Part shown: one piece after another, positions 47,115 to 58,459 of the stretch
Numbering within the stretch: the stretch's first letter is position 1
How the letters are laid out: each line of letters opens with the position of its first letter
Origin: Subtercola vilae
GTDB lineage: Bacteria; Actinomycetota; Actinomycetes; Actinomycetales; Microbacteriaceae
NCBI RefSeq assembly: GCF_004923255.1
Contig: NZ_QYRT01000009.1
Span: 62,001-126,000 of the forward strand
Direction: 5' to 3'
Length of the DNA stretch: 64,000 nucleotides
Notes under the pieces: model-generated
The model's database searches: none
The model's input: the letters and a program-made list of their open reading frames with translations, nothing else
Told to the model about the DNA's origin: nothing
Position numbers and translations under genes: made by a program

Positions 47115-47166
47115 ATTGGCGTGACACTGGGCCGCGACACCCATTCGTTTGCAGAGACAGGCCCTC

Positions 47167-48180
47167 ATGGCAGCTGATCCCCGCCCAGAGCGTGCGCCGA
47201 GCATCCGCGATGTCGCCCGATTGTCAGGTGTTTCGCACCAGACCGTCTCACGCGTGCTCAACAATGCCACCGGTCTTCGCGACGAGACCCGCCAGCGTGT
47301 GCAGGAGGTCATCGACGAGCTGCATTACCGGCCGAACCGGGCCGCTCGCATGCTCGTCACGAGCCGCTCACGCACCTTCGGCATTCTCTCGGCGTCGAGC
47401 GCCCAGTACGGCCCGGCCTCCAGCATTGCCGCCATCGAGCACGCGGCGCGCGACGAAGGGTACTTCGTCAACACGGTCACGCTCGACAGCGGCGACCGGG
47501 CATCCATCGAACGCGGCCTCAACCATCTGCTCGACCAGGCCGTCGAGGGCGTGGTGGTCATTGCGCCACAGGTGCGGGTCTTCAACACGCTTCGCGAGAT
47601 GAACCTCACGGTGCCCATTGTCACTCTGCAGTCGAACGGCACCACTGACCACGCACTGTCTGTCGATCAGATTCTCGGTGCGCGGCTGGCCACCCGACAC
47701 CTCATCGAGCTGGGGCACCGCGACATCTATCACCTCGCGGGCCCGCAGGACTGGATCGAGGCCGAAGCCCGCATGCACGGCTTTCTCACCGAGATGTCTG
47801 ACCACGACGTGCCGGCGACGGCTCCTATTCTCGGAGACTGGACCGCCGAGTTCGGCTTCTTTGCCGGCCGTGAGCTTCTGCGCGTGCGAGACTTCACGGC
47901 GATCTTCTCCTCGAACGACCAGATGGCCCTGGGCCTCATTCATGCGATTCGGGATGCTGGCCTCGATGTGCCCGGCGACATCAGCATCGTCGGGTTTGAC
48001 GACATTCCCGAAGCGCGGCACTTCTGGCCGCCGCTGACAACCGTGCGCCAAGACTTCGCCGAGCTGGGGCGGCGGTGTGTGGCGCTGCTGCTGAACGGTG
48101 GCGCGGCTGAGACGGGCGTGGCTTCTGAGCTCGTTCCCGAGTTGCTCGTGCGCTCGAGCACAGCACCGCCTGCCCGCTGA
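47167..48180 (+). CDS. LacI-family transcriptional regulator
   Basis: The 337-residue regulator has an N-terminal LacI HTH and hinge (SIRDVARLSGVSHQTVSRVLNNATGL, RVQEVIDELHYRPNRAARML) and a periplasmic-binding-like sugar domain (VTLQSNGTTDHALSVDQILGARLATRHLIELGHRDIYHLAGP; FSSNDQMALGLIHAIRDAGLDVPGDISIVGFDDIPEARHFWPPLTTVRQD). It lies just upstream of the epimerase/sugar-importer operon and has matching operators before both. It probably represses the operon until the imported sugar or its phosphate binds. The ATG at 47167 has AGG upstream. Confidence 0.95.
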   Translation: MAADPRPERAPSIRDVARLSGVSHQTVSRVLNNATGLRDETRQRVQEVIDELHYRPNRAARMLVTSRSRTFGILSASSAQYGPASSIAAIEHAARDEGYFVNTVTLDSGDRASIERGLNHLLDQAVEGVVVIAPQVRVFNTLREMNLTVPIVTLQSNGTTDHALSVDQILGARLATRHLIELGHRDIYHLAGPQDWIEAEARMHGFLTEMSDHDVPATAPILGDWTAEFGFFAGRELLRVRDFTAIFSSNDQMALGLIHAIRDAGLDVPGDISIVGFDDIPEARHFWPPLTTVRQDFAELGRRCVALLLNGGAAETGVASELVPELLVRSSTAPPAR

Positions 48181-48380: not shown

Positions 48381-49091
48381 GTGAACTACGGCGCTGAAGT
48401 TGAGGTCACCATTGCGCGTGTTCGCGCTGAGGTGTCTCGTCTGCACGCCGAGCTCACTCGCTACGAGCTCGTCATCTGGACGGGCGGCAACATCTCGGCC
48501 CGGGTGCCGGGTGCCGATCTCTTCATCATCAAGCCCAGTGGTGTGAGTTACGACGACCTCGCACCCGAGAACATGATTCTCTGCGATTTCGACGGTGTCG
48601 TCATCGAAGCGACTCCGGGGTCGAACCGTTCGCCCTCAAGCGATACCGCGGCGCACGCCTACGTGTACCGCCACATGCCAGAGGTCGGCGGCGTTGTACA
48701 CACGCACTCCACGTACGCCACGGCGTGGGCCGCACGGGGTGAGGCCATCCCGTGCGTCATCACCGCGATGGCCGACGAGTTCGGCGGAGAGATTCCTGTC
48801 GGCCCGTTCGCCATCATCGGCGACGATTCCATCGGCGTGGCCATCGTCGAGACGCTCACCGGTCACCGTTCGCGTGCCGTTCTGATGCAGAACCACGGTG
48901 TCTTCACTATCGGCGCCGATGCCAAAGACGCCGTGAAAGCCGCGGTGATGGCCGAAGATGTGGCCCGCACCGTGCACATCTCCCGGCAACTCGGCACCCC
49001 GTTGCCGATTGCACCAGAAGCGATTGACGCCCTTTTCGACCGCTACCAGAACGTCTACGGACAATCTGCCCTCCCCACTTCTCGTCGCTGA
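48381..49091 (+). CDS. AraD-like L-ribulose-5-phosphate 4-epimerase / class II aldolase
   Basis: The 236-residue protein has the class II aldolase/AraD fold. Zinc ligands are in GGVVHTHSTYATAWAA (two His) and VLMQNHGVFTIG (third His). WTGGNISAR, IIKPSGVSYDDLAPE and the 4-epimerase-type phosphate site are present, and length matches AraD. The reaction would link L-ribulose-5-P (or a similar pentulose phosphate) to D-xylulose-5-P. No araA or araB lies next to it, so substrate identity is open. The GTG has AAGGAG 8 bases upstream. It is the first gene of the importer operon. Confidence 0.88.
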   Translation: MNYGAEVEVTIARVRAEVSRLHAELTRYELVIWTGGNISARVPGADLFIIKPSGVSYDDLAPENMILCDFDGVVIEATPGSNRSPSSDTAAHAYVYRHMPEVGGVVHTHSTYATAWAARGEAIPCVITAMADEFGGEIPVGPFAIIGDDSIGVAIVETLTGHRSRAVLMQNHGVFTIGADAKDAVKAAVMAEDVARTVHISRQLGTPLPIAPEAIDALFDRYQNVYGQSALPTSRR

Positions 49092-49186: not shown

Positions 49187-50317
49187 GTGAAGAAGAAGGT
49201 TGTACTTTCTCTCCTGGCCTCAGCCGCCATGGTTGTCTCACTGGCCGCCTGCTCTAGCGGCAGCTCATCGTCGTCGTCGTCGACCGGAGGCGCCGCAGCC
49301 GGCGCCGGCGGCCTCATCGGCGTCGCAATGCCCACCAAGTCGAGTGAGCGTTGGATCGCTGACGGAAACAACATCAAGCAGCAGCTCGAGGCAGCCGGTT
49401 ACACCGTCGACCTCGAGTACGCAGAAGATGACATCCCCACCCAGGTCACTCAGCTCGAGAACATGATCACCAAGGGCGCCAAGGCCCTGATCATCGCCTC
49501 GATCGACGGCACCACGCTGACGAACACGTTGCAGAACGCCAAAGACAACAACATCCCGGTCATCGCTTACGACCGCCTCATTCGCAACTCGCCGAACGTG
49601 GACTACTACGCGACCTTCGACAACTACAAGGTCGGAGTCGAGCAGGCGACCTCGCTGCTCACCGGGCTGAAGGTTCTCGACGCCAGTGGCAACAAGACCG
49701 GCACCAAGGGCCCGTTCAACATCGAGCTGTTCGCCGGTAGCCCCGACGACAACAACGCCACGTTCTTCTTCAATGGCGCGATGGACACCCTGAAGCCGTA
49801 CATCACCGATGGCACCCTCGTTGTGAAGAGCGGCCAGACCGACTTCAACACGGTGGCAACACTGCGTTGGGACCCGGCCACCGCTCAGGCGCGCATGGAG
49901 AACATCCTGACGTCGACCTACTCGAACGGCACCACGAAGGTCAACGGCATCCTGTCGCCCTACGACGGCCTGTCGCGCGGCATCATCTCGGCGCTGACCT
50001 CTGCTGGGTACACCACGGCTGATATCCCCGTCATCACCGGTCAAGACGCTGAGCTCGACTCGGTCAAGGCCATCAACGCCGGCGAGCAGTACTCGACCAT
50101 CTACAAAGACACTCGCGAGCTCGCGAAGGTTGCTGTAGCCATGGCCACCGCTGTTCTCACCGGGGCAACGCCTCAGACGAATGACACGAAGACCTACAAC
50201 AACGGCATCAAGGTCGTTCCGGCCCAGCTGCTGCAGCCGGTCACGGTCACCAAAGACAACGTCAAGAGCGTTCTGATCGACGGTGGCTACTACACCGCTG
50301 CTCAGGTCAACGGCTAG
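49187..50317 (+). CDS. chvE: Sugar ABC transporter substrate-binding lipoprotein (ChvE/multiple-monosaccharide type)
   Basis: The 376-residue protein starts with a lipoprotein signal peptide ([21 protein letters not shown], lipobox L-A-A-C) and a Ser/Gly linker, then a type 1 periplasmic-binding fold ([83 protein letters not shown]). This is the ChvE/XylF group, which binds aldoses such as arabinose, xylose, glucose or galactose. The GTG at 49187 has AAAGGA 6 bases upstream; the TTG at 49172 is rejected. A strong hairpin follows the gene. Confidence 0.94.
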
Positions 50318-50413: not shown

Positions 50414-51946
50414 GTGACCACCAATATCCTGGAAATGCGCAGCATCACGAAGACGTTCCCGGGCGTCAAGGCGCTGCAGAACGTGACGCTCGACGTCGGC
50501 CGCGGCGAGGTGCACGCGATCTGCGGCGAGAACGGCGCAGGCAAGTCCACGCTGATGAAGGTCTTGAGCGGCGTGTACCCGTTCGGAACCTACGAAGGCG
50601 ACATCGTCTTCGAGAACGAGACAATGGAGTTTCGCGACATTCGTGACAGCGAGGCCAAAGGCATCGTGATCATCCACCAGGAACTGGCGCTCAGCCCGTT
50701 CCTGTCGATTGCCGAAAACATTTTTCTGAACAACGAGATCACGGGCGCCTTCGGCCTGATCGACTGGAACAAGACCAACATCGAGGCATCCAAGCTCCTC
50801 GCCCGCGTGGGCCTCAGGGAGAACCCCACCACGAAGGTTCGCGAACTCGGGGTGGGTAAGCAGCAGCTCGTCGAGATTGCCAAAGCGCTCTCGAAACGAG
50901 TGAAGCTTCTGATTCTGGATGAACCGACCGCCGCCCTGAACGATGAAGACAGTGATCACCTGCTCGACCTGATTCTCTCGCTGAAGGCGCAGAACATCAC
51001 GTCGATCATCATCAGCCACAAGCTGAACGAGATCAAGAAGATCTCCGACACGGTGACGGTCATTCGAGACGGCAAGGCCATCGAGACCATCGCCAAGATC
51101 GACGTCACCGAAGACCGCATCATCAAAGACATGGTGGGTCGCGACCTCGAACACCGCTACCCCGATCACACGCCGCACATCGGCGACGAGATTCTGCGCG
51201 TCGAGAACTGGACCGCGTACCACCCGCAAGACCCGACTCGCGTCATGGTCGACAACGTGAACATCAACGTGAAGCGCGGCGAGATCGTCGGTATTGCTGG
51301 TCTGATGGGCGCGGGTCGTACCGAGTTCGCGATGAGTCTGTTCGGGCGCTCGTACGGCACCAAGATCTCAGGTTCGGTCTTCAAGAACGGCAAAGAGATC
51401 AAGACCCGCACGGTTTCGGAGGCCATCGACAATGGTCTGGCATACGCCACCGAAGACCGCAAGTTCTACGGGCTCAACCTCATCGAAGACATCAAGCGCA
51501 ACATCTCGATGGCGTCGCTGAAGAAGCTCGAGCGCGGCGGATTCGTCGACGACAACGAAGAGTTCAAGGTGGCTGAGGGCTACCGCAAGTCGATGAACAT
51601 CAAGGCACCCTCGGTACTGGCGAAGGTCGGCAAGCTGAGCGGTGGCAACCAGCAGAAGGTCGTACTCAGCAAGTGGATCTACTCAGACCCCGACGTGCTG
51701 ATTCTCGACGAGCCCACCCGCGGCATCGATGTGGGCGCCAAATACGAGATCTACACGATCATCAACCGCCTCGCAGCCGAAGGCAAAGGCGTGATCGTCA
51801 TCTCGAGTGAACTACCCGAACTCATCGGCATCTGCGACCGCATCTACGCGCTCGCCGAAGGCCGCATCACCGGTGAAGTGCCTATTGCAGAGGCCACCCC
51901 CGAAACGCTGATCAAGTACATGACCATGGAAAAGGAACGAGCCTGA
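50414..51946 (+). CDS. mmsA: Multiple-monosaccharide ABC transporter ATPase (MmsA/GguA)
   Basis: The 510-residue protein has two ABC domains. Domain 1 is intact: [16 protein letters not shown] (Walker A), [10 protein letters not shown] (Q-loop), [16 protein letters not shown] (signature region) and [12 protein letters not shown] (Walker B). Domain 2 has the naturally altered Walker A of RbsA-type proteins ([16 protein letters not shown]), [14 protein letters not shown] and [16 protein letters not shown]. It powers sugar uptake with MmsB. The GTG at 50414 has AAGGAAG upstream; its TGA overlaps the mmsB ATG. Confidence 0.95.
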
Positions 51947-53187
51947 TGTCCAACCTCGAAACGAAGCCGGCCGACGACACGGCAGCAGGCGGCCGGGTCA
52001 ATCCGGTCGAGAACAGATTCACCACCGCGATCACCCACGTACTCAGCGACCTGGGCAAGAACGGTATCTTCATCGCCCTCGTGCTGGTGGTCGTGGTCTT
52101 CGAGATCCTGACCAATGGTGTGCTGCTGCGGCCGCAGAACGTCTCGAACCTCATCGTGCAGAACGGGTACATCCTGATTCTGGCTATCGGCATGGTGATG
52201 GTGATCGTGGCCGGCCACATCGACCTGTCGGTGGGTTCGGTTGCCGCCTTCATCGGTGCCGTCTCGGGCGTGTTCGCAGTGAACATGGGGCTGCCGTGGT
52301 GGCTCTCGATCATTCTGTCGCTGCTGATCGGTGCCGTGGTGGGTGCATGGCAGGGGTTCTGGATCGCGTACGTCGGAATCCCGGCGTTCATCGTGACGCT
52401 GGCGGGCATGCTCATCTTCAGAGGGCTCGCGCTCGTGGTTCTCGGCAACGCGAACATCGGCTCGTTCCCCGAGCTGTACCGCTCGATCGGTAACGGTTAC
52501 CTGACGAACCTGTTCGGCGATTTCGCCGTCGACCCTCTCACCATGGGCGTAGCGATTATCGCCATCGTCGCATTCATCGTGCAGTCGGTGCGTACGCGCC
52601 GCGGCCGGCAGAGCTACGGGCAGGCTGTCGAACCGCTCGGCTGGTTCGTGGGCAAGCTGGTTCTGGTTGCGATCGTCGTCGGCCTGTTCGCCTACGCGCT
52701 CGCCACGTTCAAGGGCATCCCCGTCACGCTGATCATTCTCGCCGTGTTGGTGCTCATCTACGGGCTGGTCATGACCCGCTCGGTGTTCGGCCGCCACATC
52801 TACGCCATCGGTGGCAACCTGCACGCAGCCGAGCTGTCGGGTATCAAGACCCGAAACGTGACGTTCTGGCTGTTCGTGAACATGGGCTTCCTGGCCGCAC
52901 TCGCCGGCCTGGTATTCACTGCCCGGCTGAACCTCGCAGGCCCGAAGGCCGGCGACGGGTTCGAGCTCGAGGCGATCTCGGCCGCCTTCATCGGTGGCGC
53001 GGCGGTGACCGGAGGTATCGGTACCATCGGCGGTGCCATCGTGGGTGGTCTCATCATCGGTGTGCTGAACAACGGCATGTCGATCATGGGCATCGGCATC
53101 GAGTGGCAGCAAGCCGTCAAGGGCCTCGTACTGTTGCTGGCCGTTGCGTTCGACGTCTACAACAAGCGCCGCTCCGGCGGGCGTTGA
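51946..53187 (+). CDS. mmsB: Multiple-monosaccharide ABC transporter permease (MmsB/GguB)
   Basis: The 413-residue permease has 10-12 membrane segments and the BPD_transp_2 (RbsC/XylH) features: ILILAIGMVMVIVAGHIDLSVGSVAAFIG, GIPAFIVTLAGMLIFRGLALV, FGRHIYAIGGNLHAAELSGIKT and FIGGAAVTGGIGTIGGAIVGG. Length (about 400 residues) fits the MmsB/XylH subgroup, which is longer than RbsC. It overlaps mmsA by TGATG. Confidence 0.95.
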   Translation: MSNLETKPADDTAAGGRVNPVENRFTTAITHVLSDLGKNGIFIALVLVVVVFEILTNGVLLRPQNVSNLIVQNGYILILAIGMVMVIVAGHIDLSVGSVAAFIGAVSGVFAVNMGLPWWLSIILSLLIGAVVGAWQGFWIAYVGIPAFIVTLAGMLIFRGLALVVLGNANIGSFPELYRSIGNGYLTNLFGDFAVDPLTMGVAIIAIVAFIVQSVRTRRGRQSYGQAVEPLGWFVGKLVLVAIVVGLFAYALATFKGIPVTLIILAVLVLIYGLVMTRSVFGRHIYAIGGNLHAAELSGIKTRNVTFWLFVNMGFLAALAGLVFTARLNLAGPKAGDGFELEAISAAFIGGAAVTGGIGTIGGAIVGGLIIGVLNNGMSIMGIGIEWQQAVKGLVLLLAVAFDVYNKRRSGGR

Positions 53188-53235: not shown

Positions 53236-54813
53236 ATGCCCGTGTCTGGCCTCGCACTTCACCTGAGCTCTGTCTCGGCGAGGTCGTCGCCCGGCACGGG
53301 CATTCGTGCTGTGTCGTTCGCGGTGCCCGCGGGGGCCGTGCACGGCATTCTGGCCGAAAACCTCTCGGGGGCATCCGAGGTTCTCGCTGTGATCGGCGGC
53401 TTTCTGCCGGTCACCGAGGGTGTTCTCCGCATCGGCGGTGAGCCTCGCCGCTTCGACGGGTACCGCGCCGCCGAAACACTCGGCGTGCGGGTGCTGCGCG
53501 GCGAACCCGCCATCGTTCCGCACACCTCGGTGGCAGAGAACATCTTCCTCGGACACGAGAAGTCGGTGGGCGGTTTCATTCGATTCGACCGGTTGAACGC
53601 GAACGCCGCCGAGCTGCTCACCCGTTTCGGTCTCGGGGCGACGGTCGATCCGCGGTCACCCGGGTCGGGCTTGTCGCGTGCCGAACGCCAGGTCGTAGAG
53701 CTGGTGCGCTGCGTGGTGGCCCAGCGAACAGTCGTGCTGATCGACGAACCGTTCACGGGTCTCGACGCTGCGGGCCTCGCGTTGGTGGCAGCCGGCATCC
53801 GGCGGCTCTCTGCTGAGGGGGTCACCGTGGTGGTGGCGACGCACCGCATCGACATGCTGACGCAGGTTGCCCAGAACGTGAGCGTGCTGTCGCGCGGCGA
53901 GGTCGTCGAAACGGTGTCGATGCTCGAGGGGCGGCCCTCTGAGGCGCGGTTGATCGAACACATGACAGCGAACATCCGGGTGTCGCCGCGCCCGCTGCAC
54001 GAGACGCGTGAGGCCGGGCCCGTGGTCTTCGAGATCGCCGGGTGGAGCGCCTACCACGTGGTCGATTCAGACACGGCTGTAGTGCGGGATGTGTCGCTGA
54101 ACGCCCGTCGCGGTGAGATCGTCGGGCTGGCGGGACTTGCCGGTTCGGGTATCGCCGAGCTGGCGCTCAGCCTCTTCGCGCGCTCGTACAGCTCGAGCGT
54201 GACCGGCACCATGCTCGTGAACGGCAGCCCCCTGGTGGCCGAGACCCCGCAGCAGTCGGTTGCGGGTGGGGTGGGGCTCTCGACGAGCGCGAACCTGCGG
54301 TACGACCTGAAACTGTTGGGCGGCATTCCGTCACGCGTCTCGCCGTCGCTTCTCGGCAGGCTGGCACGTTTCGGCTTGGTCGACCGGCATCGCGACTACG
54401 AGACGGCGTCGCCCGCGTTCGGCCTCGGCGGAATCTCGGCGCTCGTCGGCAACCGCGCCGCCGCCGCAGCGGCGGCAGACGGCGGGTGGTCTGCGGGCGC
54501 CAGGCGGCATGTGGATGCCCTGAAGCTGTGGCTCGACCAGCCCCTCGAGGCGCGCCCCGTCGTTGTCGTTCTCGATCACCCCACCGCCTCGCTCGAGGGC
54601 GAGCAGTTGCACGCTGTGCGCGACCTCATCGTCGAACTCGCCACTGGCGGCACTGCCGTGCTGCTGGCCTCCGACAATCTCGACGAGCTGCTGATCATGA
54701 CGAACCGCATCTTCACTCTGGCCGAGGGGCGGGTGACCGCCGAGCTCGTGACGCGGCAGGCCACCGCACCCTCCGTGCTTGCCGGCATGATCGGTCGCAC
54801 CTCGTCATCGTGA
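53236..54813 (+). CDS. Degenerate MmsA paralogue (pseudo-ABC ATPase)
   Basis: The 525-residue protein aligns along its whole length with MmsA but lacks nearly all ATPase motifs. The first Walker A reads AENLSGASE at 40-48 where MmsA has GENGAGKST, so the Lys is Ala46. The Q-loop Gln is Gly89. The signature is LSRAERQVVEL. Walker B (LIDEPFTGLD, Asp170-Glu171) and the H-loop His (ATHRID) remain. In domain 2 the P-loop is GLAGSGIAE, the signature is lost (ADGGWSAGARRHV), and Walker B reads VLDHPTAS with His448 in place of Glu. The frame is long and intact with normal codon use, so it is a maintained protein, not debris. A regulatory or structural partner of the importer is a reasonable guess. 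It starts 48 bases after mmsB. Confidence 0.85.
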   Translation: MPVSGLALHLSSVSARSSPGTGIRAVSFAVPAGAVHGILAENLSGASEVLAVIGGFLPVTEGVLRIGGEPRRFDGYRAAETLGVRVLRGEPAIVPHTSVAENIFLGHEKSVGGFIRFDRLNANAAELLTRFGLGATVDPRSPGSGLSRAERQVVELVRCVVAQRTVVLIDEPFTGLDAAGLALVAAGIRRLSAEGVTVVVATHRIDMLTQVAQNVSVLSRGEVVETVSMLEGRPSEARLIEHMTANIRVSPRPLHETREAGPVVFEIAGWSAYHVVDSDTAVVRDVSLNARRGEIVGLAGLAGSGIAELALSLFARSYSSSVTGTMLVNGSPLVAETPQQSVAGGVGLSTSANLRYDLKLLGGIPSRVSPSLLGRLARFGLVDRHRDYETASPAFGLGGISALVGNRAAAAAAADGGWSAGARRHVDALKLWLDQPLEARPVVVVLDHPTASLEGEQLHAVRDLIVELATGGTAVLLASDNLDELLIMTNRIFTLAEGRVTAELVTRQATAPSVLAGMIGRTSSS

Positions 54814-54859: not shown

Positions 54860-55237
54860 GTGACTCCCGCAGAAGAGATCGACAACCTGATCAGAACCCA
54901 CCCCGACTGGCGTGGGGCCGCACTGGCGAATGCCCGCCGCATCATCAGCGAGGTCGACCCCGGCATCGTCGAAGAGTGGAAGTGGATGGGCGCGCCCGTC
55001 TGGGAGCTCGACGGCATTCTGGTCGTGGGCAACATCTTCAAGACGAAGGTGAAGCTCGGCTTCATGTACGGCGCCCTCATCACCGACGCCACAGGTCTCT
55101 TCAACGGCGAACTGGGCGGCAACCAGCGTCGCTCGTACGAGTTGGCCGAGGGCGATGTGATCGACGAAGAGGGGCTGAAGGCTCTCGTTCGCGAGGCCAT
55201 CGCGTTCAACCATGCCAAGCGGGCCAATAAGAAGTAG
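54860..55237 (+). CDS. DUF1801 family protein
   Basis: The 125-residue soluble protein matches DUF1801: IDNLIRTHPDWRGAALANARRIISEVDPGIVEEWKWMGAPVWELDGILV followed by KVKLGFMYGA, with the usual W-K-x-P/G-x-W core. The fold is known, but its role is not. The GTG at 54860 has AAGG 5 bases upstream; a GTG at 54854 is also possible. It lies 46 bases after the pseudo-ATPase gene, and a shared role is not evident. Confidence 0.85.
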   Translation: MTPAEEIDNLIRTHPDWRGAALANARRIISEVDPGIVEEWKWMGAPVWELDGILVVGNIFKTKVKLGFMYGALITDATGLFNGELGGNQRRSYELAEGDVIDEEGLKALVREAIAFNHAKRANKK

Positions 55238-55932: not shown

Positions 55933-58377
<2,445 letters not shown>

Positions 58378-58459
58378 GGCAGCCAGCATAGGGCGGGCGA
58401 CCGACAGGCGCTGGTCGATCGCTGATCAGTGTCGGTGGCGGGTGGTCGGGGCTCCCTCG

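Follow-up and report, generated by a model that had tools for sequence, protein, structure and literature searches.

A maintained ABC-ATPase paralogue, predicted to be catalytically dead, is inherited with one clade of multiple-monosaccharide importers in Subtercola vilae and its relatives

In this work, we have used sequence comparison and structure modelling to follow up a gene at the end of a sugar-importer operon of Subtercola vilae, here named ps (pseudo-ATPase), the name being used for the gene and for its protein. Our comparative analyses show that ps is a maintained duplicate of the importer ATPase, belonging to the GguA/MmsA branch and evolving under purifying selection, and that, judged by its motifs, it is catalytically dead, with no complete site left for ATP binding and hydrolysis. 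They show also that its inheritance follows that of one clade of its cognate importer. Regarding its role, ps would probably regulate the importer and not power it. Our best explanation, which we advance tentatively, is that it may dock on the permease MmsB as an alternative subunit, independent of ATP, and restrain or tune the importer.

The ps gene lies at positions 53236–54813, on the + strand, of the window, that is, of the whole 64,000-nucleotide stretch of DNA that was analysed. Its open reading frame has an ATG start, 525 codons, as the first-pass annotation had described, and a TGA stop; a GTG two codons in (53242) is a possible alternative start, and the ATG-CCC-GTG beginning, MPV in the protein, is invariant within the genus. 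The end-to-end alignment with MmsA (50414–51946) claimed in that annotation was recovered by BLASTP (152/515 identical residues, 30%, E 1e-75), and codon use indeed looks normal, with a GC3 of 0.836 in ps against 0.831 in mmsA. By its frame, its Pfam and NCBIfam matches and its AlphaFold model, the 525 aa product consists of two tandem nucleotide-binding domains (NBD1-NBD2) of the RbsA/GguA type. The Pfam ABC_tran model matched it at 70.4 bits (cut-off 25), which places it in the ABC ATPase fold family, and the same model matched 13/13 ps copies at E ≤ 0.001. The best NCBIfam model was GguA (NF040905), but at 266.7 bits ps stays below the curated cut-off of 810 and falls outside that equivalog. 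The AlphaFold model of the single chain (pLDDT 81.8, pTM 0.79) is a confident double NBD with the ABC-ATPase fold, and its structure matches are ABC ATPases, with Z up to 25.3; the top matches, whether by sequence or by structure, included no solved RbsA-type ATPase.

Upstream of ps the importer operon is complete, all of it on the + strand. It begins with a LacI-family regulator (47149–48180; Pfam LacI and Peripla_BP_3), whose role in the operon is suggested by its position, followed by an araD-like L-ribulose-5-phosphate 4-epimerase (48381–49091; NCBIfam PRK06557, 370.4 bits, cut-off 251) and a chvE-like multiple-monosaccharide binding protein (49187–50317; ChvE, 537.5 bits, cut-off 460). 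Then come mmsA, coding for a GguA-type ATPase with intact motifs that is the parent or closest paralogue of ps (GguA, 866.7 bits, cut-off 810), and mmsB (51946–53187), coding for the GguB-type permease that is the proposed docking partner of ps (GguB, 542 bits, cut-off 450). The ps gene follows directly behind on the same strand, and no promoter- or terminator-like site was found on the + strand in the gap between mmsB and ps. A short gene directly behind ps (54863–55237) is without counterpart in ten sister loci; the conserved part of the operon therefore ends with ps, in agreement with the place at the operon end assigned to it earlier. Further on, at 55933–58389 of the - strand, the window codes for an 818-aa protein that by eye resembles a short UvrA-type ABC ATPase.

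Of the two sites of intact GguA proteins, one is competent and composite, formed by the Walker A, Walker B, Q-loop and H-loop of NBD1 with the NBD2 signature LSGGNQQ, and the other is degenerate. Bacillus subtilis RbsA and NupO likewise have one competent and one degenerate ATP site (PMC11466899). We compared the 13 ps copies with 77 GguA sequences, in which the residues lost from ps are invariant, and a complete ATP site was lacking in 13/13. The NBD1 Walker A (AENLSGAS, 53353–53376, +) has Ala46 in place of Lys44 of MmsA; across the copies this position is Ala in 10, Ser in 2 and Cys in 1, against Lys in 77/77 GguA. Gln89 in the Q-loop of MmsA is Gly89 in ps (53500–53502, +; Gly 11, Ala 1, Ser 1), and at the degenerate NBD1 signature position (53671–53691, +) LSRAERQ stands for the LGVGKQQ of MmsA. 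The P-loop region of NBD2 (EIVGLAGLAGSGIAELALSLFARS, 54115–54186, +), among the best-conserved stretches of ps, has no Lys, and Arg302 of MmsA is kept there in only one copy. SAGARRH is found where MmsA has the NBD2 signature LSGGNQQ, and an intact LSGGNQ occurs in 0/13 copies. This signature region has been replaced by an Ala/Gly-rich low-complexity stretch (54445–54507, +) whose length varies in sister genomes, and the AlphaFold model has pLDDT < 50 at residues 391–415. Finally, His448 in LDHPT (54577–54579, +) replaces the NBD2 catalytic Glu (Glu433 in MmsA), this site being His in 12/13 and Leu in 1/13 ps copies and Glu in 77/77 GguA. In G009 (L038:2545-4632) and G004 (L041:5916-7802), ps carries long Gly/Ala-rich inserts of very unequal lengths, always in frame; they occur both in the linker between NBD1 and NBD2 and in the region that has lost the NBD2 signature.

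The alignment to MmsA thus confirmed Ala46, Gly89, His448 and the loss of both signatures, as listed in the first-pass annotation, and it revealed a further loss absent from that list: at the A-loop position (53284–53286, +) the adenine-stacking aromatic residue, Phe15 in MmsA and Phe in 77/77 GguA, is Ser17 in ps and Ser in 13/13 copies. With the Walker A Lys, the Q-loop Gln and the A-loop Phe gone from every copy, ps does not have the one competent site of an active RbsA-type ATPase. The earlier statement that ps keeps none of the motifs was too strong, since NBD1 retains the Walker B and D-loop (VVLIDEPFTGLDA, 53731–53769, +; Asp in 13/13 and Glu in 12/13 copies), with Asp170-Glu171 and His203 in ps itself, and the H-loop His is kept in most copies; what holds is that ps keeps no complete set.

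Our analysis of selection showed that ps is nevertheless constrained. Pairwise dN/dS in five close pairs was 0.21, 0.18, 0.14, 0.21 and 0.26, well below 1, with 95% limits of 0.09–0.33; the Nei-Gojobori method used does not model GC-rich codon bias, yet these limits are far from 1. The constraint acts on both NBDs, and ps evolves faster than MmsA, for which the same pairs gave 0.02–0.07. Neutral drift simulated at dS 0.15, the smallest divergence, produced a stop in 99% of trials, and none is seen in ps: the frames are intact in 13/13 copies, with no premature stop in sister strains. Neither mark of a pseudogene, a broken frame or a dN/dS near 1, was found, and with orthologues, low dN/dS and uninterrupted frames the initial description of a maintained pseudo-ATPase paralogue proved correct. 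When sites were classified, 69 were found to retain the GguA residue and 46 to be fixed in ps in a state differing from the GguA-conserved one; a further 60 are conserved in ps only, and 135 GguA-conserved sites drift in ps. The fixed new states include S17, E48, R88 and H448, which, together with a fixed block in NBD2 (residues 356–388), speak for a change of function and against decay.

The search for orthologues in related genomes found ps in 11/12 genomes of the genus, in frame, full length (525–696 aa) and without internal stops. In 11/11 of these carriers it is directly 3' of mmsB on the same strand, with a gap of 18–103 bp; in the other genus genome (G002, 86% complete), ps and a close MmsA are both missing. 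A survey of 400 family genomes added two species of other genera that carry ps. In one of them (G280) it is again behind mmsB. In the other (G396), it is flanked by uppS and a ROK-type regulator, away from mmsB, and is still intact; the mmsA-mmsB operon of this genome is on another contig. In this genome (L152:6057-7883 and L226:4710-5951), ps, outside the importer operon, overlaps the end of uppS, and downstream of mmsB a terminator-like hairpin is found instead of ps, followed by xylB- and xylA-like genes on the opposite strand. No additional copies were found in the order and phylum samples, in which the profile (A3) leaves nothing between true ps copies, at 690 bits or more, and ordinary GguA, at 394 or less, and a plasmid search for ps returned one match of 31.5%, a GguA-like level.

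The presence of ps follows the identity of the importer ATPase. Within the 400 family genomes, an MmsA at least 92% identical to that of the window is accompanied by ps in 12/12 sampled genomes, which are exactly the sampled ps carriers, while with an MmsA 80–88% identical ps is found in 0/88. The MmsAs of the carriers form one clade with a support of 100. Those of G280 (L151) and G396 (L226) are 92–94% identical to the MmsA of the window and lie inside its clade, with their congeners elsewhere in the tree. Their position in the carrier clade, and not with their own genera, suggests that the operon and ps have been inherited or transferred together; a between-genus transfer of the whole operon, or misplaced species, are both possible. 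The protein itself is placed with GguA, apart from other RbsA-type ATPases (support 97), an indication of descent from the GguA/MmsA lineage, not of function, and the GguA motif W[TS]AxHPxD is present in 9/13 ps copies vs 0/24 other RbsA-type proteins. A topology uniting ps and the MmsAs of the carriers in one clade was not rejected (p-AU 0.50), long branches limiting the resolution. The simplest reading is that ps originated by an mmsA duplication in the ancestor of the carrier clade, followed by fast divergence; the distribution of ps is compatible with a recent origin by duplication of the adjacent mmsA, the resolution of the tree being limited by its long branch.

What could be the role of ps in vivo? 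Since two permeases are predicted to share a single fused ATPase in RbsA-type complexes (PMC11466899), MmsA could be exchanged as a whole for a dead copy that is likewise fused. We propose that ps still folds as a double NBD and would take the place of MmsA on the MmsB dimer, docking at its two coupling-helix loops. The MmsB2-ps complex would be unable to cycle, and ps would thereby lower or gate the count of active MmsB2-MmsA importers per sugar or energy state. The best residue-level argument for this docking is the sequence of the NBD1 groove (AIVPHTSVAENIFLGHE, 53509–53559, +), where the coupling helix of MmsB is likely to sit; this sequence is retained in ps as VP-x-x-SVAEN-x-x-LG, close to MmsA. 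GguA-invariant sites are kept in ps at 7/14 positions of this groove vs 9/39 of the ATP site, a difference that is suggestive and not significant (p = 0.09), and for that reason we do not treat groove retention as proof. In NBD2 the groove has diverged, with 3/9 sites kept, and the place of the post-Q-loop groove of MmsA is taken in ps by a specific block from residue 355 (YDLKLLGGIPSRVSPSLLGRLARFGLVDRHRDY, 54298–54399, +), with the motif YDLxLxGGxPxRxS and invariant Y, D, L, L, GG, P, R, AR, G, D, R and Y across the 13 copies (residues 356–388). In view of this block and of the relocated copy of G396, ps might bind a different partner instead of MmsB.

Such a partner is central to the alternative that survives best, in which ps is a maintained regulator acting away from MmsB by binding MmsA, the LacI-type regulator or another soluble protein. 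MalK, by analogy, has regulatory partners besides its permease. Two elements conserved in ps and absent from MmsA, the block 356–388 and SARS at residues 14–17, would fit such a role, as would the preservation of ps in G396 at an unrelated locus beside a ROK regulator; however, ps sits behind mmsB in every other carrier, and we consider this alternative unlikely. We think it improbable that ps works as a non-hydrolysing sensor of a nucleotide or ligand, with a nucleotide bound at NBD1 or at the conserved P-loop region of NBD2. The NBD1 Walker B Asp-Glu, most of the H-loop His residues and the conservation of that P-loop region would suit a sensor, but the losses of the A-loop aromatic, the Walker A Lys and the Q-loop Gln make this the least likely of the three functional readings put forward earlier, the others being a competitor of MmsA and a sensor binding MmsB, and the P-loop region of NBD2 has no Lys and, in all copies but one, lacks the Arg302 of MmsA. 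Equally improbable is an assembly or stability factor that would hold MmsB while MmsA is scarce and be displaced later; the position of ps and the groove arguments apply to it as they do to our best explanation, but the 88 genomes with an MmsA 80–88% identical and no ps indicate that such importers in general need no ps. That ps is a decaying duplicate being lost is very improbable. The loss of every complete catalytic site, its faster evolution than mmsA and the growing Ala/Gly-rich inserts of G004 and G009 would suit such a decay, but it is contradicted by the low dN/dS, the frames intact in all copies, the conserved new residues and the retention of ps after its relocation in G396.

ABC transporters commonly have a degenerate ATP site, with one competent site normally kept. 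The GguA/MmsA proteins themselves (NF040905), multiple-monosaccharide ABC ATPases of the CUT2/RbsA type, resemble ps in having two fused NBDs and the same length class, but possess a complete ATP site, whereas ps evolves faster and scores far under the cut-off of their model. RbsA and NupO also have fused NBDs and a second P-loop without Lys; they keep the other ATP site, in contrast to ps, and the role of the degenerate site in fused-NBD importers is an open question (PMC11466899). In heterodimeric ABC exporters with a degenerate nucleotide-binding site one Walker B catalytic Glu is replaced, as in ps, but these proteins retain one competent site and themselves make up the transporter, while ps is an extra gene beside an intact ATPase (PMC7756269). 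Pseudoenzymes, dead duplicates kept as regulators, share with ps the dead active site, the kept fold and the purifying selection. In the literature searched, with its partial coverage, no pseudoenzyme case in an ABC importer and no fully degenerate RbsA-type subunit was found, and to our knowledge no ABC importer has been described in which a fused-NBD subunit has degenerated fully and is retained as a regulator.

Our proposal that ps acts on MmsB would imply that a dedicated pseudo-ATPase subunit can replace the motor of a CUT2-type importer, the non-pumping MmsB complex serving as a brake or a sensor; we regard this generalization as possible, with considerable doubt. Selection has kept a paralogue without a complete site beside an intact motor, a natural experiment on the function of NBDs without ATP, and this may represent a new bacterial route to throttle sugar uptake post-transcription.
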